Assembly: GCA_949299755.1 (NCBI GenBank)
Contig: CASGBA010000008.1
Span: forward strand, 1-64,000
Source: an uncultured Treponema sp.
GTDB lineage: Bacteria; Spirochaetota; Spirochaetia; Treponematales; Treponemataceae
DNA length: 64,000 nucleotides
Reading direction: 5' to 3'
Positions 16,516 to 42,689 of the stretch are shown one piece after another. Below the pieces are notes generated by a model. That model was given only the letters and a program-made list of their open reading frames with translations, made no database searches and was not told the DNA's origin. Numbering within the stretch: the first letter of the stretch is position 1; the number at the start of each line of letters is the position of its first letter. The translations under genes were made by a program, and so were the position numbers.

Positions 16516-17745
16516 TCACGCCTCCGGTACACGGCGGAAAACAAGCGATGTGTTTATGCCGCCGAAAGCGAAATTGTTGGACATAACGTACTCCGCGTCA
16601 ATTTCACGGCCGGTTCCCGTGATAAAATCAAGGGGAGCGATTTCCTCATCCCGATCAACCAGATTGAGATTGGGGCAAAACCATTTCTTTTTCTGCATAA
16701 GGATTGAGCACCAGGCTTCAATGGCGCCGCAGGCACCCAGAGTATGCCCGGTGTAATTTTTCAGGGTTGACACGGGAACCTTTCCGCCGAACACATTATA
16801 AACCGCATTCGATTCCACAATGTCACCGGAAACAGTGGCCGTGCCGTGCATATTGATGTAACCGATATCCTCCGGCTCAAGGCCGGCGGCCTTCAGCGCC
16901 ATCCTCATCACAGCTTCAATCGTGCTCTGGTTCGGATGCGTGATATGCGTTCCGTCAGTGTTTGTGGCGAAGCCTGCGACCTCGGCGTATATTTTCGCCC
17001 CGCGGCGGACGGCGTGCTCATATTCCTCCAGAATGAGGGTTCCGGCCCCTTCCCCGACCACAAGCCCGTCACGGGTTTTGTCATAGGCGCGGGGTGTCCG
17101 CGAAGGATGCGCGTTATCGGTTGAGGCGGAAAAGAGGGCGTCAAAAACACCGGCATCCGCCGGAGTAAGTTCCTCCGCGCCGCCGGCTATCATGATGTCC
17201 TGAATCCCGTTGGCCACAGCCTCATAGGCGTAGCCTACCGCCATGCTGCCGGATGTACAGGCGGTGTTCGTGGTTATAAGCCGTCCGGTAAGCCCGTAGT
17301 GCACCGACAGATTCGCCGCACAGGTTTGCGGCATCGCTTTGATGTAGGTGGATGCTGAAAGGGAGCTGGAATCCTTGTCTATGAGGAGACGGTAAAAATC
17401 AACAAGGGCGTCCACATCTCCGGCGGAAGACCCGTAGGAAATCCCGGTGGAACCGGACGTGAGTTCCGGCGAACCGAGAAGCCCTGCCTTCTCCAGTGCG
17501 TTTTCCGTGGCATTTAACGCCAGAATCGCAACACGCCCCATACCCCTGGTCTCCTTCCTCGAAAAAGCCCTGAGCTCCGCCGTCACAGGAGCCGCAAGAT
17601 GCGGCCGAAGACCCTCGTATACCTCCCATTCAGGCATGGCGGCAACCTTGTTTTCAAGGGCTTTAAGGCTTCGCCACACTTCGTCATCCGCTATCCCGAG
17701 GGAAGAGACAATACCTCCGCCTGTAACCACAACCCTGCGTTTCAC
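16516..17745 (-). CDS. apeR: Aryl polyene ketosynthase II (FabF-like), ApeR type
   Basis: A 409-residue beta-ketoacyl-ACP synthase. The nucleophile is Cys163 in NTACTSGSM, the FabF position. The two active-site His lie in MHGTATVSGD and NYTGHTLGACG. In APE loci this KS works beside ApeO/ApeC in chain extension. GTG start: GTGA overlaps the TGA of the ketoreductase gene, with GGAGG 7 bases upstream. It is the last gene of the minus-strand APE block. The assignment to ApeR rests on context, since FabF paralogues look alike. Confidence 0.88.
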   Translation of the reverse strand: MKRRVVVTGGGIVSSLGIADDEVWRSLKALENKVAAMPEWEVYEGLRPHLAAPVTAELRAFSRKETRGMGRVAILALNATENALEKAGLLGSPELTSGSTGISYGSSAGDVDALVDFYRLLIDKDSSSLSASTYIKAMPQTCAANLSVHYGLTGRLITTNTACTSGSMAVGYAYEAVANGIQDIMIAGGAEELTPADAGVFDALFSASTDNAHPSRTPRAYDKTRDGLVVGEGAGTLILEEYEHAVRRGAKIYAEVAGFATNTDGTHITHPNQSTIEAVMRMALKAAGLEPEDIGYINMHGTATVSGDIVESNAVYNVFGGKVPVSTLKNYTGHTLGACGAIEAWCSILMQKKKWFCPNLNLVDRDEEIAPLDFITGTGREIDAEYVMSNNFAFGGINTSLVFRRVPEA

Positions 17746-18476
17746 TGCAAACCTCCGTTAACGGATATCACCTGCCGGGTAATATATCCTGCGTTTTCAG
17801 ACAAAAGAAAAGAAACAGCGGCGGCGATATCTTCGGGCTTGCCGAGTCTTTTCATAGGAATCATTTTCTGAACCTCTTCAAGGGGAAGTCCTTCTATCAT
17901 ATCCGTCTCAATTACCCCCGGAGCGACTGCATTCACGGTGATGTTTCTTGAAGCGACTTCGAGGGCGAGGGCTTTCGCCGCCCCGATAAGACCGGCTTTT
18001 GAGGCGCTGTAATTCACCTGTCCACGGTTTCCCATCACACCGGAAACTGAAGAAAGCACGACCACCCTGCCCTTCCTCTGTTTGCACATCGCCATCATGA
18101 CAGGATGAAGGACATTGTAAAATCCGTCGAGGTTTGTGCGGAGGACGGAATCCCAGTCATCATCATCCATAGCGACAAAAACGTTGTCACGGCATATTCC
18201 GGCGTTAAGGACAACGCCCCAAAAAGAACCGTTGGCTTCCAAATAAGCTTCCAATGCCTGCCGGCATTCTTCACGGTTTGAAATATCGAACTTAATAAGA
18301 GAAGCGCTTCCGCCAATGCTTTCAATTTCCTTTTTCAGGGTTTCAGCTTTCCCTACATTTGCACCGCGGTAATTAATGACAACTTCAAATCCGTCCTGCG
18401 CAAGCTGGATGCAGCATTCACGGCCTATTCCGCGCAGGGCACCTGTTACAAGGACAGTTCGTTTATCTGACATCAT
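17742..18476 (-). CDS. apeQ: 3-oxoacyl-ACP reductase (FabG-like), ApeQ type
   Basis: A 244-residue short-chain dehydrogenase that reduces the beta-keto group on the ACP-bound polyene chain with NADPH. Visible are the cofactor loop VTGALRGIGRE, NAGICRD, the catalytic Ser (VLSSVSGVMG), the YSASK motif and the C-terminal ITRQVISVNGG typical of FabG. The ATG overlaps the TGA of the dehydratase gene, with GGAGG just upstream. Confidence 0.9.
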   Translation of the reverse strand: MMSDKRTVLVTGALRGIGRECCIQLAQDGFEVVINYRGANVGKAETLKKEIESIGGSASLIKFDISNREECRQALEAYLEANGSFWGVVLNAGICRDNVFVAMDDDDWDSVLRTNLDGFYNVLHPVMMAMCKQRKGRVVVLSSVSGVMGNRGQVNYSASKAGLIGAAKALALEVASRNITVNAVAPGVIETDMIEGLPLEEVQKMIPMKRLGKPEDIAAAVSFLLSENAGYITRQVISVNGGLQ

Positions 18477-18946
18477 TCCTCCCTATTGATAAAACGGTCA
18501 ACATCATCAACACTCATAACCAGAAGCCTTCCCTGGGAAACAGGCCCGTCGTCATTGAACACCTTTCCGGTGAAAGAAAACAACCCGTTGAAAAGATCCG
18601 TTTCCTGTTCGATTTCTACAAGCACCGTTTCATTTTCTTTGAGGAAGGGGCGGGAAATCACAAAATCAGTGACCCGCAGAATAAAACCGATGGAAGGTCC
18701 TTCTTTTCCCGCATATTCCATTATATGTGAATAAGCGCTGATTGACTGGGCAATCAACTCAAAGGTGGCATACCCCGGTGTGCACCCACCGAAAAACAAC
18801 GGGGATGTATTGTCAAGGGTCGCATGGGCGGTTAAACCGGAGTCATTCACGGAGATGATTCCGTCTATCAAAAGCATATTACCCCTATGTGGTATAATAG
18901 AAAAAAGATTTTCTTTTCCCTCAAGGGGAAGATTAAGTTTCTTCAC
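18473..18946 (-). CDS. apeP: Hot-dog dehydratase subunit, ApeP type
   Basis: A 157-residue hot-dog protein with IPHRGNMLLIDGI and, further on, TPGYATFELIAQSISAY, the pattern of the COG4706-type dehydratases found in aryl polyene loci. The usual FabZ GHFP segment reads GGCTPG here, so the classic His is not at that place. APE dehydration is reported to use a paired ApeI:ApeP dimer, and ApeI carries the His. The GTG start at 18946 is chosen because GGAGAAG precedes it and it follows the KS stop by one base. The longer frame would overlap the KS. Confidence 0.82.
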   Translation of the reverse strand: MKKLNLPLEGKENLFSIIPHRGNMLLIDGIISVNDSGLTAHATLDNTSPLFFGGCTPGYATFELIAQSISAYSHIMEYAGKEGPSIGFILRVTDFVISRPFLKENETVLVEIEQETDLFNGLFSFTGKVFNDDGPVSQGRLLVMSVDDVDRFINREE

Positions 18947-18947
18947 C

Positions 18948-20084
18948 TTAAATCTTCTCCATAAGCAGCACTGCGTTTGCCCCGCCAAAAGCGAAGGCGG
19001 AATTCATCACCGCTTTTAAGTTCCTGGATTCCCCCGGTCTCGCAAAATCTAGTGCAGCCAAATCAGGATCCAGGACACCATCGTTTACATGGGGAGGCAG
19101 CATTTGCGGCGGTTCCGAAGCCAGGGTAAGGGCGCAGATTGAAGCGCCGATGGAGCCGGCGGAACCGAGGGTGTGCCCCGTCATCGCCTTGGTACTTGAA
19201 ACTTTCACGGAGGAACCGAAAACAGCGTCTACAGCCTTTGCTTCCATGGCGTCATTCACGTCGGTTCCTGTACCGTGAAGATTTATGTAGCCGATGTCCT
19301 CCGGCTTTTTCCCTGCCATTGCCAAAGCTTCCTTCATAATAGTGATGACGGCGGTTGCCTCCGGATCAGGACTGGTCATGTTGTAGCCGTCGCTGGATTC
19401 GGCGAAGCCGGTGATTGCCACAGGGAAGGGCACAACCTGCTCCCTCGTCACAAAGAAAAGCCCGGCCCCGTCCCCCAGGGTAATGCCGCTGCGGTTCACG
19501 CTGAAAGGGTTTGTGGGGACCGGACTGACAGCCGACAGGGCCATGAAACCAGCCGATATGAGGTCGCTGGATAAATCCACACCGCCCACCAGCATGGCAT
19601 CCGCCACACCGGATTCAATTAAATCTATGCCCCTGATTATTGTGGATATGCCGGAAGCGCAGGCGGATGCGACACTGAAAACAGGTCCCTTCAAGCCAAG
19701 AAGTCCGGCAAGCTTCCCCGCCGGAACATAGGGATTCTGCAAATCCACATTGTACGAACCGAAAGTCCCTTCTTCCAGGTATTTTTTATGTTCCGGTGAC
19801 GCCATCTGACTGTGATAATCGCAGCCGCCCAAGGCCACACCGACCCGGGAGACATCGTATTTTTCCAGGATACGCCTGGCATCGGCTTCCAGCTGTCCGG
19901 CAGCGTTTTCCAGTATCCTGTTGAACAAATCATCACCTTCAAGGCGTACCCTTCCCACAAGGGCACCGACACGGTTCCGGGAAAAATATTTCTGCTCCCC
20001 TTTGAGGATATTCCTCATGGTTTCATCAGCGGTATTGCCCAGGGCGGTAATCATAACAGGCTTTGTCATGAAATATCTTTTCAT
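18948..20084 (-). CDS. apeO: Aryl polyene ketosynthase I, ApeO type
   Basis: A 378-residue ketosynthase with nucleophile Cys142 in ASACASGIS and His residues in LHGTGTDVNDAME and MTGHTLGSAGS. In characterised APE systems the active ApeO pairs with the chain-length factor ApeC, which sits at the other end of this block. ATG 20084 (MKRYFMTKP) is chosen for GGAAGGAAGGG just upstream; the longer frame runs into the lipoprotein gene. The dehydratase gene follows immediately. Confidence 0.87.
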   Translation of the reverse strand: MKRYFMTKPVMITALGNTADETMRNILKGEQKYFSRNRVGALVGRVRLEGDDLFNRILENAAGQLEADARRILEKYDVSRVGVALGGCDYHSQMASPEHKKYLEEGTFGSYNVDLQNPYVPAGKLAGLLGLKGPVFSVASACASGISTIIRGIDLIESGVADAMLVGGVDLSSDLISAGFMALSAVSPVPTNPFSVNRSGITLGDGAGLFFVTREQVVPFPVAITGFAESSDGYNMTSPDPEATAVITIMKEALAMAGKKPEDIGYINLHGTGTDVNDAMEAKAVDAVFGSSVKVSSTKAMTGHTLGSAGSIGASICALTLASEPPQMLPPHVNDGVLDPDLAALDFARPGESRNLKAVMNSAFAFGGANAVLLMEKI

Positions 20085-20158
20085 TAAAACCCTTCCTTCC
20101 GGGCGGATGGGATATCTTTCTTTCCTGGTTTCAGAATCACCTGTGCCTCCCTGTATTT

Positions 20159-20731
20159 TCACTGAAGGATTTCAATATCATACCTATACCCCCGCAGATG
20201 GTTCACAACGCTTATGCTGTTTCCATCCCGCTCCATGCTCCATACAAGGGACGTCCCCTGGTAAACCGACCGGTTCTGTTTGTCGCCGTCTGCCTTGTAC
20301 CGGAACAAAAGCCTGGCTGAACTGATGAGCTTCCCGACTTCAGCATAGTCATAAAAAGCCATCTGCATATCCGCCACAATATATTCAGCCTTGATTTTTG
20401 ATGCCGCCACAAAAGACGATGAAAAAGAAAGCGCCTTCCCGTCCCAGAGGATGGAGCATATTGTTTGCCCTGAAGGCGATATCATGGTGATATCCAGTTT
20501 TTCCTCATCGGCAACAAGGAAGGCTTCGGCCACAAATCCATCGTGACTGCCGAAACTTCCTGTAAGCAGCTGGTGGGATTCCATAGGGACTCCGATAGCG
20601 GAAGGAGGCAAAAGCCCGATTGTGTTTTCATCGGTTATATACACAACCCCGGCGCCGCGGATTGATTTACAGGAAGAGAAAAACACAATAATTAAAATAA
20701 AAACCGGAAAAAAAAGTCTGTACTTAAACAT
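20159..20731 (-). CDS. DUF3261-like lipoprotein of the APE locus
   Basis: A 190-residue lipoprotein with lipobox FFSSC after a hydrophobic signal. The body is beta-rich, with GSFGSHDGFVAEAFLVADEE and a C-terminal GYRYDIEIL, resembling the DUF3261 lipoproteins in gammaproteobacterial APE clusters next to the exporter. It probably helps place the polyene lipid in the outer membrane (inference). The start could be ATG 20731 or GTG 20740. The low sequence conservation of this family makes the name tentative. Confidence 0.68.
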   Translation of the reverse strand: MFKYRLFFPVFILIIVFFSSCKSIRGAGVVYITDENTIGLLPPSAIGVPMESHQLLTGSFGSHDGFVAEAFLVADEEKLDITMISPSGQTICSILWDGKALSFSSSFVAASKIKAEYIVADMQMAFYDYAEVGKLISSARLLFRYKADGDKQNRSVYQGTSLVWSMERDGNSISVVNHLRGYRYDIEILQ

Positions 20732-20847
20732 CTTTCCCACAGGTAAGTTTACTTTTTAGAACCGCTATTAGTCAACTCCGGAATAACGGTCCATATAAAA
20801 TACCATATTCCATTGTATACGAACTATGCTTCAGAAGAAAGGGAAAT

Positions 20848-23142
20848 TTACTTTTTCCCGGTATTTTTTGAACAAAGGGCGGTTATGAAGGCGGCGGTTA
20901 TGCCTATGAATACAGTCAACCCGAACGTATGCACCGGCCGGAAAGAGCTGAACACAAGGCTTCCGAAACTCAATGCGGTAGTCAAATATGAAAGGGTGAT
21001 TGCGAGCATAGGTTTTTGACCGGAATTCCCCGCAAAAACCATGTAATCCAAACCCAAGCCAATTACAAGGAGGAGTCCAACGGCAAAAAAGAAATCGACA
21101 GGAAGACCGGCAAATCCGATAGAAGATAAAACCGACAGGATAATAATAACCGGAGAAACAGCCATCTGCAATCCTTTCTTTTTGAATACAAGAATTAAAA
21201 GCAGGATGATTACAATAAAAGCAGCGGTAAGCATTTTCAATATGATTTCCGTAAGCTCATCAAGCTGGAGATTCACATCCCTGCTTTTCTGGAAGTATGT
21301 AACACCTTCACACTTTTCCGCCGCATTTTCCACTTTTCCTGAACCAACACCTCCGAAAACAAGAACCGCCAGATAATATTTTTCTCCAAGACTGCCAATT
21401 ATAATACGATTCATCATATTTGAAAGGCTTGCTGGAATCCCGGAAAAATTGAGTGCAACGAAATCATCTTCCCAGGCAGAACGGGCTTTGTCTGGATTTA
21501 TTCCCAAAACATCGCATTGTTCATACAAAAAAGGAATGAGGGCTTTTGAAATTTCAAAATTCGTTTGTTGGACAGAAGGAGGAGGAATAAACGCTGAAAC
21601 AGAAAGATAGTTGTCTATGACTCCTGCACACCGCAGTTTCTCCAGTTCCAGGGAAAACAGGTATTCTTTCTCCCTGGCATCCTGCTCATTGTTTCCTTCG
21701 ACAATTGCATAGGTTGAGCTCATGAATCCGAGAACCCTTCCGGCGGTTTTTTCGCTTTCCAGAAGTCTGTCACTCATCTGGTATAAATCAAGCACGTTGT
21801 TATGGACTTTAAGATTTCCTGCGGCAAAAATAAAAAAAACAGCTGAAACTACAAAAAGAGGGAAAAGAAAAGACCCGTGTTTTTTTGTTTCCGGAAGCCG
21901 CCATGCAAGCGCCTTTTTTGAAATCATAGACGGTCTTGAAACAAGAGGGAACAACCCCATGACAGTGAGGAAAGAACTTATCAAACCGGCGCAGGAAAAA
22001 AGAGCCACCTGTTTGAGTATTCCATAAGGACTGAAGAGAATCAGAAAATAACAGAGAACCGTGGAAACAAAACTGACAGAAAGATTCTTTGAAAGCTTTT
22101 CCGCCACACAACGACCGTTTTCGCATTCATCCCTTTTTGCGTAAGCCAGATAAAAATGAATGGCATAATCAATGCTGGTTCCTATAAGAGAAGTACCGAA
22201 AATCATAGTGAGAATATGAACATCCGGAAAAAAAATAACGACGGCGGACAAGGCGGACAAAATAGAAAAAAAAGTGCTAAGCAAAAACAATCCGATCACA
22301 TGGATGTTCCTTAGCATCACAAGAAACAAAATGATTATGATAACTATTGACACTGTTGTAATCAAAGTTATTTCTTTCTGGGCACCGGAAGCGCTTTCGT
22401 AACTGTGGAAAGGGAAACCTGAATAACTTATATCCAGGTTCTCCGTCTCTTTTTCCAGGCTGTCTCCGACAGCATATATTTGAGAGACACCTCCCGATGT
22501 ATTTGATATATTCAAAGCCGCTTCCGACAGGGTTCCCTGCAAAAGAATATACCATACGCCGTCATTTTCCACAGCGAGCACGCCTTCCTTAGGCATTACC
22601 GGAGTAATACCGCTGACCTTTTGCAAAAAGTCAGTGAAAATAATATTGTCAACGAAAAAAGGATCATTGTCCAGATTTTCGATGGAATTGAATGTCAGTG
22701 GTGAAAAAATAGAGGCAAGGCTATTCATCTGGAAATCGCCGGGATTTTCCTGAATTTCCTTCACGGCATATTCCGGGAGCATCTGATATCTGTATTTTGA
22801 AAGTATGCCGGAAAATGAATCCATATCCATGGGGATGCTTTCAAGACGCAGGTCCGCAAAAATATTTCCGTCGGACAGCCCTGAATACATTTTTTCGGCG
22901 CATGATTTTGCAGTATTAAAATCCGGGTGCCCGATAAGGATATTCACATCCGCATTTTGTTTGGCAGCGAATTTTTTCTCCGCGGCGCTGACTCCTTCGG
23001 ATATACCGTAGGTAGGAAGCAGCGACATAAAATCCGTAATGACAGATAATCTCCCGGACAACAGTACAATTATAAAACCGGCCGCAAGAATTCCATGGTA
23101 TAATATGAACAATAAGCTAAAAGGAAAATTCTTTTTCTTCAT
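20848..23142 (-). CDS. MMPL/RND-type exporter of the APE locus
   Basis: A 764-residue polytopic membrane protein with the RND/MMPL layout: one N-terminal helix, a large periplasmic loop, five to six helices (about 260-425), a second periplasmic loop, then a final helix group (from about 650). The GTSLIGTSIDYAIHFYLAY segment and the VIGLGLDYMVF segment are the two matching helix-4-like motifs carrying the conserved Asp. MMPL proteins move lipids across the inner membrane. Here the cargo is probably the aryl polyene lipid (ApeM role). It overlaps the end of the LolA-like gene by 26 bases. Confidence 0.85.
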   Translation of the reverse strand: MKKKNFPFSLLFILYHGILAAGFIIVLLSGRLSVITDFMSLLPTYGISEGVSAAEKKFAAKQNADVNILIGHPDFNTAKSCAEKMYSGLSDGNIFADLRLESIPMDMDSFSGILSKYRYQMLPEYAVKEIQENPGDFQMNSLASIFSPLTFNSIENLDNDPFFVDNIIFTDFLQKVSGITPVMPKEGVLAVENDGVWYILLQGTLSEAALNISNTSGGVSQIYAVGDSLEKETENLDISYSGFPFHSYESASGAQKEITLITTVSIVIIIILFLVMLRNIHVIGLFLLSTFFSILSALSAVVIFFPDVHILTMIFGTSLIGTSIDYAIHFYLAYAKRDECENGRCVAEKLSKNLSVSFVSTVLCYFLILFSPYGILKQVALFSCAGLISSFLTVMGLFPLVSRPSMISKKALAWRLPETKKHGSFLFPLFVVSAVFFIFAAGNLKVHNNVLDLYQMSDRLLESEKTAGRVLGFMSSTYAIVEGNNEQDAREKEYLFSLELEKLRCAGVIDNYLSVSAFIPPPSVQQTNFEISKALIPFLYEQCDVLGINPDKARSAWEDDFVALNFSGIPASLSNMMNRIIIGSLGEKYYLAVLVFGGVGSGKVENAAEKCEGVTYFQKSRDVNLQLDELTEIILKMLTAAFIVIILLLILVFKKKGLQMAVSPVIIILSVLSSIGFAGLPVDFFFAVGLLLVIGLGLDYMVFAGNSGQKPMLAITLSYLTTALSFGSLVFSSFRPVHTFGLTVFIGITAAFITALCSKNTGKK

Positions 23143-23764
23143 CCGCCGTTAATTTTCTCTGCTCTACATTTTTAAGTTTATATAAAATACTGTCCCCGGA
23201 ATTTTCCCTCATCAACACAGTGTCAATTGAGACTGAACCTCCGATAGTTATAGAATGGACAAAACTTTTTACGTTACTATCCTTTGGGACAAGACCTAAA
23301 AACCATCCTCCACCGCTGGAAACAAAATATAAGTCAAAAACATCCTCAAGCCGGGAAAAATCACCGGCAAATATGCTTTCCAAAGCTTCCGCAATTGAAA
23401 GATAAATTCCGTTGCCGGATACATCCATTGTAATAATCCTGGAACCAACCTGTTGCTTCATGCTGTTTCGTCCCACAATCATTTTTGATGCGTATGGTTT
23501 TTCCGTAATCCAGGCGATACCGGTACCCGGCAACAAAATCATTCTGCCGGAAGACTCCAGTTTTTTGTCCAGGCTTTTTATGGTTTTTATCTGAATATAA
23601 TCAGCGGTCATGGATGAGGTGGAAAAGGAGTTTTTAACGGTTTCAAAACCGCTGTCATCCGCCTGCAACGGATGGCTGTATATACTTTCATCATAAATAT
23701 CAGCGGAAAAAACGGTGGCGGCAAAACAACAAAAAAATAAAACAACCGGAAATATTCTACTCAT
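23117..23764 (-). CDS. LolA-like outer-membrane carrier of the APE locus
   Basis: A 215-residue protein with a cleavable signal peptide (about residues 1-20, ending VFSA), then a LolA-like half-barrel: SSMTADYIQIKTIKSLDKKL followed by GRMILLPGTGIAWITEKPY, and late VDTVLMRENSGDSI. Such carriers ferry lipids through the periplasm, and APE loci encode their own copy (ApeL role). The ATG overlaps the thioesterase TGA as ATGA. Confidence 0.85.
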   Translation of the reverse strand: MSRIFPVVLFFCCFAATVFSADIYDESIYSHPLQADDSGFETVKNSFSTSSMTADYIQIKTIKSLDKKLESSGRMILLPGTGIAWITEKPYASKMIVGRNSMKQQVGSRIITMDVSGNGIYLSIAEALESIFAGDFSRLEDVFDLYFVSSGGGWFLGLVPKDSNVKSFVHSITIGGSVSIDTVLMRENSGDSILYKLKNVEQRKLTADEEKEFSF

Positions 23765-24174
23765 AGGCTTCCGATATACTCCTTAAATGCCTCAGTAATA
23801 AAGTCAGGCACAAAACCGGTTGACTTGCCTTCCAAGTCAGTAACCATCTGGCTGCTTTCCCCCTTTGTTGTAATTACACCGGTTCCTTTGTCCATGATTT
23901 CATATTTGAATTTCAAAAGATATTCGTACTCAACCACGGTTATTCTGATAACAGCCCTTTGCCCCGGACTTAAAGGCCGTATATATTTTATTTTGTTCCG
24001 GGTAAGCGGAAGCATATAACCTTTTTTGAAGATGGAATTATAACTTAAATGCATCTTTTCCAAAAGTTCTGACCGAGCCATTTCAAAATAATCAAAATAT
24101 TTTCCGTTCCAGACAACACCCATGGGATCACAGTCGTTAAATTCAACCTTGAATTCTTTTTCCAGACAGAACAT
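23761..24174 (-). CDS. 4HBT-type thioesterase, ApeK type
   Basis: A 137-residue hot-dog thioesterase with the 4-hydroxybenzoyl-CoA thioesterase active-site pattern FNDCDPMGVVWNGKYFDYFE; Asp16 is the expected catalytic Asp. It probably cleaves thioesters on the APE assembly line, either for release or for editing. ATG 24174 has GGAG 8 bases upstream and lies directly after the acyltransferase stop. The frame continues 47 codons further upstream inside that gene, which I reject. Confidence 0.87.
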   Translation of the reverse strand: MFCLEKEFKVEFNDCDPMGVVWNGKYFDYFEMARSELLEKMHLSYNSIFKKGYMLPLTRNKIKYIRPLSPGQRAVIRITVVEYEYLLKFKYEIMDKGTGVITTKGESSQMVTDLEGKSTGFVPDFITEAFKEYIGSL

Positions 24175-24175
24175 A

Positions 24176-25102
24176 TCATTTACTCCAGAAATCATAAAAA
24201 TTATACCACTGATACGGATATTTCTGTACGTGCTTTTCCAAAAAAACGGCATATTTTTTGCAAGAGGATTCTGCGAACGCTTTTCTTGCGGATTTTCCCG
24301 GTTTTTCAAAACCATTCATATTTAGTTCGACATATATTTCATAGCTTTTTTTCAAAGATATATCTCTGGTCCTGACACACACACAAAAAAATGAAGGTGA
24401 CTCAAAAAGCAACGGAAGATAAAATGCCCCGAATGGGAACTGGGCCGGCTCTCCCAGAAAATCCACTTCAATATTCCTGTCTCCTGAACGGTCTCCGGCA
24501 ATAATGACGATGCCTCCATCGTCAAGGGTTGTCTGTATTCTCTCAATACCGTCAATTGACAAATCCCTTACGCTGAGCAAATTCAGCATGGAATCCGGAT
24601 TCAATTTTTTCAGCATGGAATTGAATTTATCCGTCACTTCAAAATCCACAAGACTAAGAACAGGGATTTTCATACCCAGCTTGTTTTTTGAAAGCTCTTC
24701 CGACAATGCACGCATTTCTTCCGCAGAACCAATATGGGAAACAATCAAAAAAACGCCTTTCCCGGATTTAAGGGTGTTGTTCAATTCATCCACACTGTCA
24801 TCACGGAAATGAAGATGACTGTAATTAACCTTGCCAACCCAGCCTTCGCATTTTTCAATCAATGTTATTGAAAAGGCAACAAAACTTTTCCACACGGAAA
24901 GCTTCTTTCCCGTCAGTGACTCAACTTTATCTAAATATTTTCTGATAGCTTTCCGTGCGGTTCCTGCAACAAAAAAATAAATGGCACTTACCGGGAAGGC
25001 AATAAGTATCAAAAGAGCATGGGGGAGAATTTTTATGAGAAAGAGCATTATGCTGAAACCGATATTATTTCCAATATCTCCCGTCTGCTGCCATTTTTTC
25101 AT
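24176..25102 (-). CDS. LpxL/COG4261-like acyltransferase of the APE locus
   Basis: A 308-residue membrane-associated acyltransferase of the lipid A late-acyltransferase fold. It has an N-terminal hydrophobic stretch (about 15-50), the catalytic H-X4-E motif in VSHIGSAEE, GDRSGDRNIEVDFLGEPAQF and the C-terminal YPYQWYNFYDFW. It probably attaches the polyene or a fatty acid to a lipid head group. In many proteobacterial APE clusters this domain is fused to the glycosyltransferase; here they are two genes overlapping as ATGA at 25099-25102. Confidence 0.82.
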   Translation of the reverse strand: MKKWQQTGDIGNNIGFSIMLFLIKILPHALLILIAFPVSAIYFFVAGTARKAIRKYLDKVESLTGKKLSVWKSFVAFSITLIEKCEGWVGKVNYSHLHFRDDSVDELNNTLKSGKGVFLIVSHIGSAEEMRALSEELSKNKLGMKIPVLSLVDFEVTDKFNSMLKKLNPDSMLNLLSVRDLSIDGIERIQTTLDDGGIVIIAGDRSGDRNIEVDFLGEPAQFPFGAFYLPLLFESPSFFCVCVRTRDISLKKSYEIYVELNMNGFEKPGKSARKAFAESSCKKYAVFLEKHVQKYPYQWYNFYDFWSK

Positions 25103-25839
25103 CTGTATTTTTTCCTCATCTTTATAAGTGAGGGGATGTGAAAAAGCATTCCGAAACACAACCGGAAAAAAACAAATGTTATACGCACATTATCCCTAAC
25201 CATACGGAAGTTGGAGCTGCCTCCTTCAGGATATGTAACCCGGACACTTTCGGAAACGATGGGAACACGGTTCCAGTACATCTTCACAAGGATTTCAATG
25301 TCGAATCCCATACGGTAATCCCACAACCCGCCGGAAGTAAGCCGGCAGGATTCTCCGACAGGATAAACCCTGAAGCCGCACATAGAATCCTTTATTGCTT
25401 TTTTATTGAATGTCACCAAATGGGTGAAGAAGTTAGCTACACGTCTTCCTTTTACACGGCTTGCAGGAACAGATGCGTCATACTCGGGATAGCCTGCGAC
25501 AAGAAAATCCGGCCTTTCCTTGGAAAGTTCCAGAAACCGCGGAACCCGGCTGATATCGTGCTGTCCGTCAGCATCTAGTTGCAGGACGTGGGTTAACCCG
25601 ATTTCTCCGGCCTTTCTGAATCCGGCGACAACAGCGCCTCCCTTTCCTGTGTTTTTTTCAAGGGTTACCAGGTGGACGAGTTCCGATAACAATGTACAAT
25701 CCCGCAACCACTTTTTATTTTCTCTGTCGCTTGCATCATCCACAAGTATAACAGGCACTCCATAATGCAAAAGTTCTTTTACTTCTTCATATGCCGAGAA
25801 ACCATGGTTGTATACTGGAATCAGGAAACCGTAATTCAT
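25099..25839 (-). CDS. Family 2 glycosyltransferase of the APE locus
   Basis: A 246-residue GT-A glycosyltransferase. FLIPVYNHG starts the fold, followed by VILVDDASD, NTGKGGAV, the metal-binding LQLDADGQHD and the DSMCGFRVYP segment of dolichyl-phosphate-mannose-synthase-like enzymes. A C-terminal amphipathic region is present. It probably adds a sugar to the polyene lipid or to its carrier. Its ATG overlaps the TGA of the ApeI-type dehydratase. Confidence 0.87.
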   Translation of the reverse strand: MNYGFLIPVYNHGFSAYEEVKELLHYGVPVILVDDASDRENKKWLRDCTLLSELVHLVTLEKNTGKGGAVVAGFRKAGEIGLTHVLQLDADGQHDISRVPRFLELSKERPDFLVAGYPEYDASVPASRVKGRRVANFFTHLVTFNKKAIKDSMCGFRVYPVGESCRLTSGGLWDYRMGFDIEILVKMYWNRVPIVSESVRVTYPEGGSSNFRMVRDNVRITFVFFRLCFGMLFHIPSLIKMRKKYR

Positions 25840-26195
25840 ATGCTATAATATATAACACCAAAGGAAGCCTTGTCTCCCTTTTTACTTAAAAATGTAAAAC
25901 CAATAACTCCGGACACTGTAAAATCCAGCATTAAATCCATTTCCGTATCCGGCAACACCGGATTCACAAATTTTGTTTTCTTGATTGCCGTAACACTTAC
26001 AGGTTTGGACAGGATTTCTGAGGCGCAACGGGCAACAATATCAATTTCCCCCACTGCCGGTAAAAGGCGGAAGGATTCAAAATGTTCCTTGAAATAAGAA
26101 GAGAAAGCAGGCACGATGAAAGAGAGAATCCATTTTCCACCGGAAGTTTTTTCCCTGCGTAAAAATTTTACAGACTCAAATCCGTTACCGTCCAC
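25836..26195 (-). CDS. apeI: Hot-dog dehydratase subunit, ApeI type
   Basis: A 119-residue FabZ/ApeI-like hot-dog protein with SSYFKEHFESFRLLPAVGEID, which corresponds to the FabZ GHFPxxPxLPGVxQ segment; His38 is the expected catalytic His. It should pair with the ApeP-type subunit. The GTG start at 26195 overlaps the end of the AMP-ligase gene and has AAGGAG 8 bases upstream. The longer frame would lie inside the ligase gene. Confidence 0.8.
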   Translation of the reverse strand: MDGNGFESVKFLRREKTSGGKWILSFIVPAFSSYFKEHFESFRLLPAVGEIDIVARCASEILSKPVSVTAIKKTKFVNPVLPDTEMDLMLDFTVSGVIGFTFLSKKGDKASFGVIYYSI

Positions 26196-28137
26196 CCTCA
26201 ATCTCCTTGTCAAACAGAGCCAGGACTTCCTGCTTTTGAAGCTTGCCCATACTGTTATAAGGTATTTCCTGAACAAAACGCCAGCGTTTGGGGATTGTCA
26301 CAGGTTCAAGGTATTCAAAAAGCCTTGACCGGAAAACTTTCATCCGCCCTGCATGGTTTTCGGCACCCAGCAATTCTTCTCCTTTTTTGGATAAAACCAC
26401 TACAGCCGCAAGATACTGTCTTTTTTCTGACGACATGGCAAAAACAACCGTATCCTTCGCAAGTCCAGTTTGTATAATCCTGTTTTCAACCTCTATGAGC
26501 GAAACCCGTTTTTCCGCTATTTTGACAACGGAATCTTTACGGCCTATGAGCTTGAATTTCCCGTCTTCCCGCAAATCAGCTAAATCCGAAGAGTGGAATA
26601 TTCCTCCATGTATGGCGCTACAGTAAAACACCAGGCATCCGTCATCACCTGATTCCACAACCACGTCCTTTGTGGGTGTCCACCATTCAGACTCATCGTC
26701 CTTGTTTATCCTCCAGCCCACAGCTCCCGTTTCCGTACTTCCGTATATTTCCAAAGGATGGGAACCGTATGCCCGGTTGACTTCCAAGGCTTCATTCCTG
26801 CGCAAAACACCCCCTGCCGTAACAATACTGATATCCCGGATTATTTTCATTGATTCACCGATTGCCGGATCTTTAACACTCATTTTTAAGAATGAAGGGG
26901 TTGTAATAAAGGCGTATTTTTCATTTCCCAGATGAAGAAAATCATCAGGCTGGGAAATTTTTTCCCGGCGGAAAGGAACACCATAAACGAAAGGTTTTAT
27001 GGCGGCAAACACAATGCCGAAGGCGTGGTGGGGGTTAACGCTGGAAACAAGAAGACGCTTCTGGAAATCACCCCGCCACTTATCACCGATGGAATCATTG
27101 TCCCATTCAAGTTCCCTTATTTCGTGCAGAACCCCTTTCGGCTCCCCAGTAGATCCGGAAGTAAACAAATAAACCCTGGAATCCTCGGGTACAGGAGGAA
27201 GGGAAACATCAGTTATATCATTCACATCTCCGATTATTTCCGGAATGCAATCGGAATAGGAAAATTTATCTGCGGAAAGACACAATGTTTTACTGTCTAT
27301 AAGAGGCTTTATGAATTCAAATGAGTAATTTGAGGATACATAAGCTTCTTTGCCGCATTGCAAAACCGCGGTAAGCCCCACAATGAAATACCAGAAATCA
27401 TCGGAATGGAGGATGACTTTTTCAATGTCTTTACTGGAAATAAACTTCCTCAAAGCGGCGGTTTCATTTAAATAATCCTTCCAAAGTTTAAAATCTCCCT
27501 GGGAAAATTTCCCGGAATAACATACTATGGCATCCTTATCCCTGGAATTAACCGACATGGAAGAAAGTGAAAATCCCCTGCTGATTCTTTTTTGCATTCT
27601 ACCCCTTACGATGAATTCCGCTGCAAAAAGGCATCCTATCAATATGTAAGACACCAACCCGTTGTACAACGCCCATATTCCGGTACTTTGCTGAAAAACA
27701 GTAAACGCCGCTATTGAACCATTAACCACAAAAAACACGCACCATACGCAGGTTACACGCCGGCAATATCTTTGCACCGTTTTTATGTTTCCGTTCCATT
27801 TTATGTTTTTGTCTCCCAAACAGGCAAAGGTAAAAATGACGGTTTCATCATGCCTGAGAGACATCCCGAAGGTGAACAAAAAAACAAGATTCACAGCTAC
27901 GGGATAAAACCTTAAAACAATTTCACTGTCTGTCAAAATGACGGTGAAGGCAACAATCCCCATGATAAGAGGCGCAACCGGTACTTTGCCCTTTTTAAGC
28001 AGAAGAAGAGAGGCGGCAAGTACAATTATAACAAAACCAACCAGACGGACAGGAAAATGGAAAACAGAAACAGATAAAAAAACGGCTGCCGGATACAATA
28101 CAGCCAGAATGTATCCGGTTATTTTTGACAGTGACAT
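26185..28137 (-). CDS. apeH: Fused membrane protein and aryl-AMP ligase (ApeG-ApeH)
   Basis: A 650-residue two-part protein. Residues 1 to about 178 are five or six membrane helices resembling the COG4648-type membrane protein of APE loci. From about residue 195 an ANL-family adenylating domain follows. It has the phosphate loop LFTSGSTGEPKG (about 324-335), YGSTETGAVGW, SSDLADL, the hinge LIGRKDSVVKI and a C-terminal PYNSMGKLQKQEV with the catalytic Lys. ApeH activates 4-hydroxybenzoate-type acids and loads them on an ACP, so this should start the polyene. I see no stop or start between the parts, so a true fusion is likely. Confidence 0.87.
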   Translation of the reverse strand: MSLSKITGYILAVLYPAAVFLSVSVFHFPVRLVGFVIIVLAASLLLLKKGKVPVAPLIMGIVAFTVILTDSEIVLRFYPVAVNLVFLFTFGMSLRHDETVIFTFACLGDKNIKWNGNIKTVQRYCRRVTCVWCVFFVVNGSIAAFTVFQQSTGIWALYNGLVSYILIGCLFAAEFIVRGRMQKRISRGFSLSSMSVNSRDKDAIVCYSGKFSQGDFKLWKDYLNETAALRKFISSKDIEKVILHSDDFWYFIVGLTAVLQCGKEAYVSSNYSFEFIKPLIDSKTLCLSADKFSYSDCIPEIIGDVNDITDVSLPPVPEDSRVYLFTSGSTGEPKGVLHEIRELEWDNDSIGDKWRGDFQKRLLVSSVNPHHAFGIVFAAIKPFVYGVPFRREKISQPDDFLHLGNEKYAFITTPSFLKMSVKDPAIGESMKIIRDISIVTAGGVLRRNEALEVNRAYGSHPLEIYGSTETGAVGWRINKDDESEWWTPTKDVVVESGDDGCLVFYCSAIHGGIFHSSDLADLREDGKFKLIGRKDSVVKIAEKRVSLIEVENRIIQTGLAKDTVVFAMSSEKRQYLAAVVVLSKKGEELLGAENHAGRMKVFRSRLFEYLEPVTIPKRWRFVQEIPYNSMGKLQKQEVLALFDKEIEGGR

Positions 28138-28139
28138 CC

Positions 28140-28385
28140 TTACTTGCTGTTTTTTGAAAGCAACTCAATCAAATCCCTGATTGTTCTGATCTCCCTGAAC
28201 ATATTTGCATCAACCTTGGGCGGCAGATAATCCTTGAATTTAACAATAAGTTCCGCCGCATCAATGGAATCCAAATCAAAATCTTCCACCAGATTCGAAT
28301 CCAGCGTGATATCATCCCGGTTAATGTCAAACTCATCCGCCAGGATATTCCTGATACGTTCAAATAAATCTTCTTCCAATGCCAT
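28140..28385 (-). CDS. apeF: Acyl carrier protein, ApeF type
   Basis: An 81-residue ACP. Ser40 in the DLDSIDAAEL motif is the phosphopantetheine site. The protein is acidic with four predicted helices, as usual. AAGGAG precedes the ATG and lies within the end of the upstream ACP gene. Tandem ACPs before the ligase are the standard APE arrangement; which one carries the aryl starter cannot be told by sequence alone. Confidence 0.88.
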   Translation of the reverse strand: MALEEDLFERIRNILADEFDINRDDITLDSNLVEDFDLDSIDAAELIVKFKDYLPPKVDANMFREIRTIRDLIELLSKNSK

Positions 28386-28391
28386 TCCGGG

Positions 28392-28649
28392 TCACTCCTT
28401 ATGTGCCGAGATATATTCCGCAAGCGTATTTACCGAACGGAAATACTTCTTGTTGTCCCCGTTCTCCTTGGAAAAAGAAACTCCGTATTTTTTTTTGAGG
28501 GCAATCCCCAGTTCCAGCGCGTCAACACTATCCAAGCCAAGACCTTCACCAAAAAGAACCTCATCATCGCCGATATCATCGGGAGAAACCCCTTCCAGCT
28601 CCAAACTGGAAATAATCAAACCTTTGATTTCCTGCTTTAATTCTTCCAT
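28392..28649 (-). CDS. apeE: Acyl carrier protein, ApeE type
   Basis: An 85-residue ACP with Ser41 in LGLDSVDALEL as the phosphopantetheine attachment site. GGGCGG lies upstream of the ATG. It is the first gene after a 130-base gap that holds a promoter-like sequence, so the ACP-to-ApeR part could be transcribed separately from the first three genes of the block. Confidence 0.88.
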   Translation of the reverse strand: MEELKQEIKGLIISSLELEGVSPDDIGDDEVLFGEGLGLDSVDALELGIALKKKYGVSFSKENGDNKKYFRSVNTLAEYISAHKE

Positions 28650-28693
28650 AAAATACCGCCCTAATAAAACCGATGGGAATCTTCAATTCTTTT

Positions 28694-28723
28694 ATTTTAC
28701 TTCAGAATAATTCTAAAAATCAA
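28694..28723 (-). promoter_or_regulatory. Possible internal APE promoter
   Basis: Minus strand: TTGATT (28718-28723), 18 bases, TAAAAT (28694-28699), in the only sizeable gap of the APE block. It would start transcripts about 40 bases before the first ACP. Confidence 0.4.
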
Positions 28724-28779
28724 TACTTTTCAGCAGCCAGGATATTTGAGCGCCTCTGGGATTCCCGGTAAAAATTCCG

Positions 28780-29538
28780 TCAATTCACATTGCGGCGGTA
28801 CATTTTTTCCAGAAATTCAGTCATTTTTATGGATTTTTCCCTGTCGTTTTTACCTTCAAACATACTGGGATAGAGTTCTTCCCCTCTGGTGAAAGAATAG
28901 GAATAACAGCCGGCGTCATTTATCTGCCAGAAGGGGTCCTGTTTCCTCAAACCTTCTTTGTCATTCCCGCCAATATACAGCGGGACAACGGGGGCATCCG
29001 CGAAAAGAGACACACAGGCAAAACCCCGCTTTATAGTAACCGGCATCCCCTGTTTTGTCCTGGTACCTTCGGGAAATATAATCAGGGTTTCATTTTTGGC
29101 AAGGGAATCGGCGCAAGCGCGCTTAAGCTCATCAATATCCTCATTGTTTGCGATATACAATACCCTTACTATGGAGCCTACTACAGTATGAAGCAATCCG
29201 CCCCTCACGATGCAGTTGGCACCGGGAATAAGGGAAAAAAGGATCACCACGTCCAGCAGGGAGGGATGGTTCGGGGCTATGATTTTTCCGCCTGTATCGG
29301 AAAAATCCGGGATGGGGCCTTCAAACCTTAAAAGCCCCAAAAGCATGCACATCCGTACAATCAGCCTGTGGGACAGGGTGACGGAACGGCGGCCCGTTTC
29401 CCGGAATTTGTCATTGGAACGGATGAAGAGCTTCTCCAATGGGAGGACAATCAGTCCCAGAACAAAGCTTCCTATCCCGAAAAAAAGGTAAATCAGGGAT
29501 TTCCGTATGCTTATCCTGGTTTTCCCTATTCTAACCAT
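28780..29538 (-). CDS. PlsC-like acyltransferase, ApeD type
   Basis: A 252-residue 1-acylglycerol-3-phosphate-type acyltransferase. It has an N-terminal membrane helix (about 12-35), the catalytic NHPSLLD (H-X4-D), and FPEGTRTK as the phosphate/acceptor-binding motif. APE clusters carry such an enzyme beside the ACPs, presumably to link the polyene to a glycerol or similar lipid. AAAGGAG precedes the ATG. It overlaps the end of the chain-length-factor gene by 13 bases. Confidence 0.88.
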   Translation of the reverse strand: MVRIGKTRISIRKSLIYLFFGIGSFVLGLIVLPLEKLFIRSNDKFRETGRRSVTLSHRLIVRMCMLLGLLRFEGPIPDFSDTGGKIIAPNHPSLLDVVILFSLIPGANCIVRGGLLHTVVGSIVRVLYIANNEDIDELKRACADSLAKNETLIIFPEGTRTKQGMPVTIKRGFACVSLFADAPVVPLYIGGNDKEGLRKQDPFWQINDAGCYSYSFTRGEELYPSMFEGKNDREKSIKMTEFLEKMYRRNVN

Positions 29539-30176
29539 ACATCTCCTTTATTTTGAATGAGATACCTGACAAAACTCCTCTGATCGCACAAAGATTGGCC
29601 GGGGAAATCATCCATAGCACCAGGGCCGGAGACTTTCACTCCGATACACATTGGGGGAAGAATCGGCGCCGTAATGTTGTTGCGGTATTCGTCCGGAACT
29701 CGCTCCTCCGCATAAATAAGCATCGCGGACTTCATCCTGCCGGTTTTTAAGGGGGCACATCCCACGGTGACAAGGTTCCTGATCACATTGTCAAAGCCGG
29801 AATAAACCGGGCTGTAAGGAACCTTGGAGCCGAGAAGGATTGTGGCTTCAGCCGGCGCCGTATTGAAAACGGAAAGGGTAAACAAAGCGGGCATTACTCC
29901 GTTGTCTTTTGCAAAAGCACTGTTGATTTTATACTGAACATCGATTTCACCCCGGACTGAAGTGAAGAACAAAATATCCGTGTCCAGTTTGAGGTGCTCT
30001 ACCATCCAGCAGGTCATTTTTGTAAGCTGGCTGAATCTCCTTGTGGCGATGGGAGAAGCGAAGGTGATTTTGGGCGATTCGGGGGAATCGGCGATTTCCT
30101 GTCTGCCCTCTACCCATCCAAACCAGTCATCCTTTGATTCCAATCCGGGAGCCCACAGGGAGAATGAGTCCACCAT
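29526..30176 (-). CDS. apeC: Beta-ketoacyl synthase-like chain-length factor, ApeC type
   Basis: A 216-residue protein matching the short ketoacyl-synthase N-terminal family (PF13723-type). WAPGLESKDDWFGW opens it, and FTLSVFNTAPAEATILLG occupies the region where a true KS has its nucleophile; no Cys is present there. In characterised APE systems ApeC lacks activity and pairs with ApeO to set chain length. Its ATG shares a base with the methyltransferase TAA. About half a KS in length, which is normal for this family. Confidence 0.82.
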   Translation of the reverse strand: MVDSFSLWAPGLESKDDWFGWVEGRQEIADSPESPKITFASPIATRRFSQLTKMTCWMVEHLKLDTDILFFTSVRGEIDVQYKINSAFAKDNGVMPALFTLSVFNTAPAEATILLGSKVPYSPVYSGFDNVIRNLVTVGCAPLKTGRMKSAMLIYAEERVPDEYRNNITAPILPPMCIGVKVSGPGAMDDFPGQSLCDQRSFVRYLIQNKGDVWLE

Positions 30177-31258
30177 TACGAGGCTCTCCTGAAAACAAGA
30201 AGCGTATAGCTGAAAACACCCAGATTGTGGTGGGCTGTTTCCAGCTTCAGTCCGCCACGCTCTATGGCAGGCACAATGTCATCATAGGTGTACATACGGC
30301 TGTTCCCGTTGGCGATGCAGGTAAAATATAAGCTTGTCTCCTGAAGGCAGAAGGAAGAAGCCCGGAACCGCTGTTTGTCAATCAATGGCTCAAGCACATA
30401 CACCTTCGCATCCTTTGTGACGGCGGCTGAAACCTTTCCGCAAATTCTGGTTATTTCTTCCGGAGAGAAGCAATCCAGAAACTGACTCATCCACACCACA
30501 TCAGCACCAGGTGGAACGGCGGTTTCATCCGCAAGAATATCCGCCGGGAAGGTCTTGATTCTGCCGGAAAATCCTTCCGCGGCGGCGTTTTTTTCCGCTA
30601 CGGCGGTCTGGCCGGGCAAATCTATTATGGTGACTTCCACATCAGGATCATGCTTCACGCAGGTAAGGGCCCACCTTGCGGTATTGCCGCCGATATCGTA
30701 CAGTTTCCGGGGTTTACCGGCAAACACAATGTCAAGGGTTTCCGGAAAGATGTTGTCGGAATAATTATGGTCGAAGGCGAACCAGCTGTTTCTGGCTTTT
30801 TCAGGAAGGGAAGACAGGGCTTCGTATACGGTTTTCCATTTTTCCCCGAAGGTTTTTAATCCGGCGGGTTTTCCCGTCCGTATACTCTCCTCCAGGTATT
30901 TAGCGCCGTCGTAGCAGACATCCTGCATAAAATCCATATTCACTTTTGTCAGGTAATCATCCGCCAGGAAACACCCTGTCTTGCCGAGCACAAAACGGTT
31001 ATCTCCATTGATTTTCAAAATACCCAATCCGAGACCTATCTGGATAAGAACAGAAACCCCGTAGGCTGACACAGAGCACTTCTCCGAAATTTCCCCTTCT
31101 GTAAGTCCCCTCTCCCCACTTTTGAGAAGCTCCGCCAGCATCCCCAGCCGGATCATTGAATAGGCGGCCTGGAAACTGAATGGGGCAAAGGCTATTTTCT
31201 GAGCCTCAAACCGTGCGTCCACAGCACTTATGTTATCTTCCTGGTAATAATTATCCAT
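30176..31258 (-). CDS. SAM methyltransferase of the APE locus (ApeB type)
   Basis: A 360-residue O-methyltransferase-like protein. An N-terminal winged-helix dimerisation region (about 15-100) is followed by a class I SAM domain with KLYDIGGNTARWAL as the glycine-rich motif I, VTIIDLPGQ as motif II and VVWMSQFLDCFSPEE further on. It may methylate the aryl head group, as seen for APE pigments with ring substituents. First gene of the minus-strand block. ATG 31258 (MDNYYQED) is chosen because an upstream ATG lies inside the promoter -10 box. Confidence 0.83.
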   Translation of the reverse strand: MDNYYQEDNISAVDARFEAQKIAFAPFSFQAAYSMIRLGMLAELLKSGERGLTEGEISEKCSVSAYGVSVLIQIGLGLGILKINGDNRFVLGKTGCFLADDYLTKVNMDFMQDVCYDGAKYLEESIRTGKPAGLKTFGEKWKTVYEALSSLPEKARNSWFAFDHNYSDNIFPETLDIVFAGKPRKLYDIGGNTARWALTCVKHDPDVEVTIIDLPGQTAVAEKNAAAEGFSGRIKTFPADILADETAVPPGADVVWMSQFLDCFSPEEITRICGKVSAAVTKDAKVYVLEPLIDKQRFRASSFCLQETSLYFTCIANGNSRMYTYDDIVPAIERGGLKLETAHHNLGVFSYTLLVFRRAS

Positions 31259-31286
31259 TTTTGTTCCGAATCTTCCTTCCTGTATC

Positions 31287-31314
31287 ATTATACCATAAAA
31301 CGGCATTTAGTAAA
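31287..31314 (-). promoter_or_regulatory. Main APE operon promoter
   Basis: Minus strand: TTTACT (31309-31314), 16 bases, a perfect TATAAT (31287-31292). The predicted +1 is near 31280, leaving about 20 bases of leader with GGAAGGAAG before the ATG at 31258. Confidence 0.6.
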
Positions 31315-31326
31315 CAGATTTGTAAA

Positions 31327-31355
31327 TTGACACTGTAAAGTTATCATGTTAATAT
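31327..31355 (+). promoter_or_regulatory. Promoter giving a leaderless mRNA for the secreted protein gene
   Basis: A perfect TTGACA (31327-31332), 17 bases, TAATAT (31350-31355). The predicted +1 is exactly the A of the ATG at 31362. No Shine-Dalgarno is present. The -35 is only 12 bases from that of the divergent APE promoter. Confidence 0.6.
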
Positions 31356-31361
31356 TCTTGC

Positions 31362-31895
31362 ATGAAAAAGTTGTTACCTGTCTTTATTATTATTCTTATG
31401 GTTTGCCCGGTCTTTTCGGCTACAATAATCACCAAATCCGGACAGACACTCAAAGGTGAAGTCATCAATAAAAATGATGACAGTATTTCGGTTTTATTAA
31501 AGATCGATATGGAAGACATACAATCGATAGATGAAACTTCAGACTTTGTTTGCCCTGAAAAGAAGGTACCTGTTAAACCGGGTAATTTTGAAATAATCCA
31601 AGGGAATGCGGTGCCTTTCCCGGCCAATATTTCCAGTCTGAAAAGAGCTGTCTTCAAGGCCCTGAAAAGCCACGGGTATACGATTCTGTCCGATGAACCC
31701 GGTATAATAACATATATGCTGAAAAAAGACGATTATGACTGTACCGTAAGATTCTGTTACTGTCCGAACGAGTATTGGTATGAATATGTGGACTCCACTA
31801 ATTTGGATGCCAATCCTGCGAAGAATAAAATCCACAGAAGTTACTACCGCTGGATTAATATACTGGAAGAGGATATATCGGATTTGTATTGGTGA
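31362..31895 (+). CDS. Secreted protein of unknown function, divergent from the APE locus
   Basis: A 177-residue protein with a clear signal peptide (cleavage near VFSA, about residue 20). The next segment, ITKSGQTLKGEVINKND, resembles a small beta-barrel start. Four Cys are present in the mature part, three of them close together (DCTVRFCYC). I do not recognise a family. It shares the intergenic region with the APE promoter, so it may be co-regulated with pigment synthesis, but this is only positional. Confidence 0.65.
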   Translation: MKKLLPVFIIILMVCPVFSATIITKSGQTLKGEVINKNDDSISVLLKIDMEDIQSIDETSDFVCPEKKVPVKPGNFEIIQGNAVPFPANISSLKRAVFKALKSHGYTILSDEPGIITYMLKKDDYDCTVRFCYCPNEYWYEYVDSTNLDANPAKNKIHRSYYRWINILEEDISDLYW

Positions 31896-33435: not shown

Positions 33436-33467
33436 AATAAAACTTATAACATTAGGTTAAAGATAAA

Positions 33468-34562: not shown

Positions 34563-34605
34563 GGCAATTCTATGAACAATTTATATTAAAACAAATGCAT
34601 TCACA

Positions 34606-35583: not shown

Positions 35584-35585
35584 GT

Positions 35586-36482: not shown

Positions 36483-36513
36483 TTGAACCTGACTAACAAT
36501 TCAAAACATTGTT

Positions 36514-38530: not shown

Positions 38531-38840
38531 CTTAACACTCGAATACAAACAATTTTTTTTTCATTTGTTGATTAGGTTATTGATAAGTTAAAAATAGCAC
38601 TAACTCCAATTACTATCCCACATATAATACGTTTATAAAAAATGTAAAATCTATCACTTTGTATTAAATATAAGCCCTGTGAATAAAGATAACTTCCCAA
38701 CTATTAAAATATTTTCATTAAGACATTTTAGATTTGAACTCAAAACCGTACCTAAATACTAGAAACACACAAATACACTTTTCAGCTATCTAGATGAAAT
38801 TAACGACTCCTGATATTTTCAATTCACTATAAAGTTTCTG
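38531..38840. other. AT-rich gap inside the glycan locus
   Basis: About 310 very AT-rich bases with stops in all frames. I see no gene remnant or clear promoter. It probably marks a boundary between separately acquired gene groups and may hold the promoter for glf. Confidence 0.4.
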
Positions 38841-39974: not shown

Positions 39975-39976
39975 AT

Positions 39977-42677: not shown

Positions 42678-42689
42678 AAATCTAAGCAC

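Follow-up and report, generated by a model that had tools for sequence, protein, structure and literature searches.

A predicted locus for aryl polyene lipid synthesis, very probably native to a Treponema-family spirochaete

Does an uncultured Treponema sp. encode a complete pathway for an aryl polyene (APE), the class of yellow membrane pigments found in E. coli and other bacteria, and is that pathway its own? The question is raised by 17 minus-strand open reading frames (ORFs) at 16516–31258 of a 64,000-nucleotide stretch of contig CASGBA010000008.1 (assembly GCA_949299755.1, positions 1 to 64,000; hereafter the window), which an earlier note had read as an intact pigment locus with the content and essentially the order of gammaproteobacterial APE clusters. 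We arrived at the same reading: with a probability of about 0.9, these genes encode an entire type II polyketide route to an aryl polyene lipid, have the architecture known from Escherichia coli and Moellerella, and are native to a spirochaete of the Treponema family. The evidence for this predicted identity comes from the content and order of the genes, their active sites, the best matches to solved structures and several gene trees. Each of the 17 ORFs was present as placed, with zero internal stops, and Pfam and NCBIfam assignments agreed with the gene names proposed in the note.

In E. coli the cluster begins with apeA (lipoprotein), apeB (methyltransferase), apeC (ketosynthase-like), apeD (acyltransferase), apeE and apeF (acyl carrier proteins, ACPs), apeG (membrane protein) and apeH (ligase), continues with apeI (dehydratase), apeJ (glycosyltransferase/acyltransferase), apeK (thioesterase), apeL (LolA-like) and apeM (RND transporter), and ends with apeN (DUF3261), apeO (ketosynthase, KS), apeP (dehydratase), apeQ (ketoreductase) and apeR (KS) (PMC8253772, Table 1). 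The window follows the order of E. coli apeB-R, reading B, C, D, E, F, GH, I, J (glycosyltransferase), J (acyltransferase), K, L, M, N, O, P, Q, R. As in E. coli CFT073 apeA-R (PMC8253772), there is a counterpart for each gene, the methyltransferase is the same, no ammonia-lyase lies inside the cluster, and the genes overlap in one orientation; most neighbours abut or overlap (the overlaps had been noted before), and only two gaps exceed 100 bp. In tblastn comparisons with the E. coli or Moellerella cluster proteins, 15/17 matched at E below 1e-9, and the weaker matches of ApeN (2e-6) and ApeP (7e-7) are supported by their position in the cluster. Protein identity to an E. coli cluster (L175) is about 23–56%, with ApeQ at 56% to both E. 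coli and Moellerella ApeQ. Chance resemblance does not account for the locus.

The anatomy described in the earlier note needed amendment at three places, although its 17 ORFs stood. Its 650-residue "ligase" is an apeG-apeH fusion: residues 1–190 match ApeG, which is a protein of its own in Moellerella and Pseudoalteromonas, and the remainder matches ApeH. Its separate glycosyltransferase and acyltransferase are the two halves of a split apeJ, which is a single gene in enterobacteria and Vibrio and is split in Pseudoalteromonas too. It also missed an apeA-like gene, divergent from the cluster and extending to 31895. A profile built from three enterobacterial ApeA proteins (E. coli, Moellerella and Cedecea) encoded just before apeB or apeC matched one of the 566 reading frames of the window, at 31362–31895 (E 6e-13). 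Judged from sequence, all 18 Ape functions (apeB-R plus the apeA-like gene) are thus predicted at the locus. Compared with E. coli apeA-R, the window differs in the fused apeG-apeH, the split apeJ, a divergent apeA with an extra N-terminal domain, and a genome without UbiC. Promoter-like TTTACT-16-TATAAT (minus) and TTGACA-17-TAATAT (plus) lie in the 103-bp interval that separates apeB from apeA. They are consensus matches only, and in both putative promoters TG precedes the second hexamer. In G003, a genome of a different genus of the family, the apeA homologue is co-directional and stands in line between apeR and apeB, and in the same-genus genome G002 none was seen beside apeB. Further fusions were observed elsewhere: in G375 and G234 (L150 and L151, about 6.7–9.5 kb) ApeG-ApeH continues in frame into ApeI as a three-domain fusion, and H-I fusions recur in further treponemes and Fibrobacter.

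The catalytic residues are intact, as claimed from the first inspection. ApeR, which scored 588 bits against NCBIfam PRK09116 (cut-off 470), has C163/H300/K329/H334, and ApeO has C168 (C142 counted from the conserved start) with intact CASG/HGTGT/GHTLG motifs. S41 and S40 are present in the two ACPs, D16 (from the conserved start) lies in the DCDPMG motif of ApeK, ApeH retains SGSTGxPKG, and ApeI carries HFESFRLLP, a catalytic-type His motif. The nearest solved structures are all APE enzymes, with the two 6qsp chains matched by ApeO and ApeC, the 6qsr chains by ApeI and ApeP, and 7f27 by ApeR. In Acinetobacter baumannii ApeR, Tyr135 and Phe202 sandwich the aryl group (PMC8358021). These align with Y134/F201 here, a pair invariant in eight spirochaete ApeR proteins, which favours an aryl substrate over an ordinary fatty acid. 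Active sites and aryl-stacking residues are thus kept relative to the Xenorhabdus doucetiae and A. baumannii enzymes (6qsp, 6qsr, 7f27; PMC8358021), to which ApeR is close and ApeC, ApeI and ApeP are distant, and the same activities are predicted. The features by which an APE cluster is recognised were found together: a KS (ApeO) with its chain-length factor (CLF) ApeC, a further KS (ApeR) that is homodimeric and has the aryl-stacking Tyr/Phe pair, two adjacent ACPs, a ketoreductase, two dehydratases, an aryl-ACP ligase, and a dedicated export set of ApeG, L, M and N (and ApeA). The genome also encodes a phosphopantetheinyl transferase and chorismate synthase.

Phylogeny pointed the same way. 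The KS, CLF, ligase and methyltransferase all fell among APE clusters in a sample of the best 80 loci that left out Bacteroidota, Verrucomicrobiota and Lentisphaerota clusters. The placement outside the APE clades that the earlier note had named as refuting for KS, CLF and ligase did not appear. In quick trees, ApeR, ApeO, ApeH, ApeB and ApeC of the window all grouped with their G002 and G003 counterparts, and with those of G418 where that genome was sampled. In a careful ApeR tree the window lineage lay, apart from proteobacteria, in a 37-row clade with 100/97 support that was made up of spirochaetes, four Fibrobacter and two further gut metagenome-assembled genomes (MAGs). The clusters of G049/G056 and of G168 sat on other branches of the ApeR trees, which suggests from sequence that APE clusters were acquired more than once in Spirochaetota; the placement of G049 is unsure because of its long branch. 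Some MAGs labelled Desulfovibrionaceae, Cystobacterineae and Gastranaerophilales (L081, L098 and L123) bear ape genes, and L081 and L098 are nested inside the spirochaete clade, reflecting gut transfer or mis-binning.

The host genome, of 2.35 Mb, has a completeness of 99.2% and a contamination of 0.85%. An intact cluster is also present in G002, of the same genus (uncultured Treponema sp., L063), where it adjoins the same rlmI gene and its proteins are 63–96% identical to those of the window, and in G003, where it is rearranged to run from E to R and then A-B-C-D. Between rlmI and apeR, G002 has a 341-residue ORF (L019 6622–7647) where the window has just 84 bp. ApeR relatives at E below 1e-90 occur in 56/393 spirochaete genomes, and those with at least 52% identity in 45/393 (~11%), including the window's own; these counts are an upper limit for clusters, several loci (e.g. 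L153 and L078) showing apeR alone nearby. Two cultured treponemes, T. bryantii and T. socranskii, were among the bearers of ape loci. Most of the 45 belong to one large gut genus of the same family, from which the window's GTDB genus differs. The earlier note had known of no characterised spirochaete pigment of this kind, and we likewise found no characterised spirochaete APE in the literature searched. However, APE clusters have already been predicted by genome mining in Treponema_D sp900541945, camel rumen Spirochaetota and oral Treponema (PMC8863827, PMC10904984, PMC9177762, PMC8549736), so the claim of novelty has to be toned down. In the portions of those reports covered here, the clusters share phylum and product class with the window and appear as mining labels without gene-level analysis. 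The cluster described here shows small architectural differences and raises one biochemical question, the source of the starter.

Two other readings of the cluster were weighed. Its gene order is almost identical to that of enterobacteria, as would be expected of contaminating proteobacterial DNA, the possibility that the earlier note itself had raised, or of a very recent proteobacterial transfer. Against this stand the shared rlmI junction in G002 and the position of ApeR in the spirochaete, Fibrobacter and gut MAG clade, and constraining the window lineage to join the proteobacteria was rejected in an approximately unbiased (AU) test (p-AU 0.0015, ApeR). In addition, ApeG and ApeH were fused in all main-clade (spirochaete/Fibrobacter) loci where both parts were testable and in 0 proteobacterial loci. 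Contamination was rejected on the ApeR tree and AU test, barring a contaminant common to the related assemblies, and we give either form of recent proteobacterial origin a negligible chance. A flexirubin, or another Bacteroidota-type pigment in place of an APE of the E. coli kind, is very unlikely. The methyltransferase, LolA-like protein and ketoreductase do match the NCBIfam flexirubin models FlxJ, LolA2_flexi and FlxB, but all three fell short of the curated cut-offs (446 vs 560, 70 vs 125 and 295 vs 340 bits, respectively), and membership by those cut-offs was rejected. On these models the ApeB and ApeQ proteins of E. coli and Moellerella obtain similar scores (E. coli ApeB, 472 bits on FlxJ), so such matches do not separate the classes, and true flexirubin clusters lay outside the KS/CLF tree sample. 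The FabG2 and PRK09116 cut-offs, in contrast, were exceeded, the gene order is that of E. coli, and an in-cluster ammonia-lyase is not present.

Several points weigh against an APE pathway native to this spirochaete. ApeL, ApeM, ApeN and ApeP have less than 30% identity to their E. coli or Moellerella counterparts. The cluster is known here from genes, order, motifs, homology and phylogeny, from which we infer its chemistry, product, localisation and function. The host is presumably an anaerobe, so an antioxidant value is something we can only infer. Finally, 4-hydroxybenzoate, the expected starter, appears from sequence searches to be without a known internal source in the genome. In E. coli it is supplied by UbiC (PMC8253772). 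A search of 39 spirochaete genomes, this one included and 37 of them ApeR-positive, gave no UbiC-family protein (PF04345), with the E. coli control positive, and an Rv2949c-like chorismate lyase (PF01947) was not found in this genome. Aromatic ammonia-lyase (PF00221) was present in 20/39 spirochaete genomes and not found in the window's lineage (G000, G002, G003 and G418). PF21168 (FkbO/Hyg5-like chorismatase) had no match here; this carries no weight because none of the control genomes matched either. The starter would then have to be imported, or come from an enzyme that these models miss.

It is possible, at odds a little short of even, that the starter is not cell-made 4-hydroxybenzoate and that the polyene is built on a gut-derived aromatic acid or on the product of an unrecognised enzyme. 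Apart from the missing UbiC, the lack of an ammonia-lyase in the window's lineage favours this, since at least seven other spirochaete genomes (G044, G231, G401, G421, G049, G056 and G168) carry one inside the cluster or within ~4 kb of apeR, as does the presence of chorismate synthase. On the other side, ApeB is conserved and closely resembles its E. coli counterpart, the methyltransferase that acts there on the aryl head; this suggests the same head group. A chorismatase could have escaped a PF21168 search that lacked a positive control. The lyase-bearing treponeme clusters (G049, G056, G168 and others) share the core biosynthetic and export genes with the window but carry an aromatic ammonia-lyase, either within the cluster or adjacent to it, and in G168 ApeG is separate from ApeH. 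A scavenged or unrecognised starter is a refinement of the APE reading and no alternative to the identity of the cluster. The starter source lies outside the cluster in E. coli too and hence does not strictly define the class.

Taking the locus as an APE pathway, ApeH, fused to the membrane protein ApeG, would adenylate an aromatic acid and load it onto ApeE. ApeR first, and then ApeO with the CLF ApeC, would extend it by malonyl units carried on ApeF, each unit being reduced by ApeQ and dehydrated by ApeI:ApeP to give conjugated double bonds. Methylation of the aryl head would fall to ApeB, while ApeK, ApeD and the split ApeJ would release the chain and join it to a lipid anchor; and ApeM, ApeL, ApeN and ApeA would transport it to the outer membrane. 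Of the putative export proteins, ApeM has about 11 hydrophobic segments (simple scan), ApeL an N-terminal hydrophobic segment, and ApeN a hydrophobic N-terminus ending in a lipobox-like SSC.

Table 1. Features of the predicted aryl polyene locus, in window coordinates.
Feature	Position	Strand	Assignment and best matches
apeR	16516–17745	-	Homodimeric FabB/F-like ketosynthase, chain initiation; best PDB match 7f27 (A. baumannii ApeR), 6e-134
apeQ	17742–18476	-	3-ketoacyl-ACP reductase, FabG2 type; FabG2 equivalog 339.4 bits vs cut-off 338.9
apeP	18473–18988	-	Dehydratase partner subunit; best PDB match 6qsr_B (ApeP chain), E 0.0036; Moellerella ApeP, E 7e-7
apeO	18948–20084	-	Elongating ketosynthase; best PDB match 6qsp_A (Xenorhabdus ApeO), 3.7e-57; ORF open to 20162, relatives start near residue 27
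apeN	20159–20740	-	DUF3261, LolB-like lipoprotein; PF11659, 5.5e-13
apeM	20848–23142	-	RND/MMPL exporter; PF03176, 1e-8; Moellerella ApeM, 8e-43
apeL	23117–23764	-	LolA-like periplasmic carrier; LolA2_flexi (NCBIfam), 1.4e-19, below cut-off; Moellerella ApeL, 6e-17
apeK	23761–24174	-	Hot-dog thioesterase; PF13279, 1.3e-16; ORF open to 24315
apeJ, C-terminal half	24176–25159	-	Acyltransferase; PF03279; C-terminal half of fused Moellerella ApeJ, 1e-28
apeJ, N-terminal half	25099–25839	-	GT2 glycosyltransferase; PF00535; N-terminal half of fused Moellerella ApeJ, 2e-59
apeI	25836–26276	-	Dehydratase catalytic subunit; PF22818 ApeI-like, 3.4e-6, 27.8 bits vs cut-off 28.5; PDB 6qsr_A
apeG-apeH fusion	26185–28137	-	Membrane domain ~1–190 and aryl-ACP ligase ~215–650; PF00501
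apeF	28140–28385	-	Acyl carrier protein 2; PRK05350, 76 bits, over cut-off 65; S40 in LDS
apeE	28392–28649	-	Acyl carrier protein 1; PRK09184, 92.5 bits, over cut-off 70; S41 in LDS
apeD	28780–29538	-	Lysophospholipid acyltransferase; PF01553; Moellerella ApeD, 1e-25
apeC	29526–30176	-	Chain-length factor; PF13723, 2.2e-16; only PDB match 6qsp_B (Xenorhabdus ApeC), 2.7e-9
apeB	30176–31258	-	S-adenosylmethionine (SAM) methyltransferase; 47% identity to E. coli ApeB; FlxJ-family 446 bits; relatives share the start at 31258, ORF open to 31306
Candidate divergent promoter region	31259–31361		Between apeB and apeA
apeA-like gene	31362–31895	+	Divergent; N-terminal LA_0442/LA_0875 domain and ApeA domain

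The G+C content of the cluster is 0.455, against 0.451 for the remaining window, with single genes at 0.38 to 0.56. No Rfam families and no tRNAs were found in the window. Beside the pigment cluster, glycan genes occupy 32356–44363 on the minus strand (DUF1972, GT4/GT2 glycosyltransferases, DUF4422, UDP-galactopyranose mutase, polysaccharide pyruvyl transferase and a thiamine-pyrophosphate (TPP) enzyme). Their G+C falls to 0.33 around 36–42 kb, and the block resembles a locus for a surface polysaccharide, with a composition that looks foreign. At 45135–47812, a ferredoxin-type NAD/FAD reductase (Fer2) adjoins an amine-oxidase-fold flavoprotein.

By analogy with proteobacteria, the predicted product most likely acts as an antioxidant pigment in the outer membrane. 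E. coli cells that express an APE are better protected against oxidative stress, and their biofilm formation is altered (PMC8253772). Carried over to this host, such protection would be plausible for an anaerobe exposed to oxygen close to the gut wall or during transfer; the literature searched held no test of oxidative-stress protection by APE in a spirochaete. If the starter is indeed scavenged or made by an unrecognised enzyme, the pigment would depend on diet or neighbouring microbes, or a new route to 4-hydroxybenzoate would be revealed, and lyase-bearing and lyase-free treponeme clusters offer a natural comparison of starter supply. It is well established that treponemes lack lipopolysaccharide (LPS). 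A lipid pigment exported to the outer membrane would alter the picture of the LPS-free treponeme membrane, and treponemes could serve for studying export by ApeM/L/N/A without LPS.

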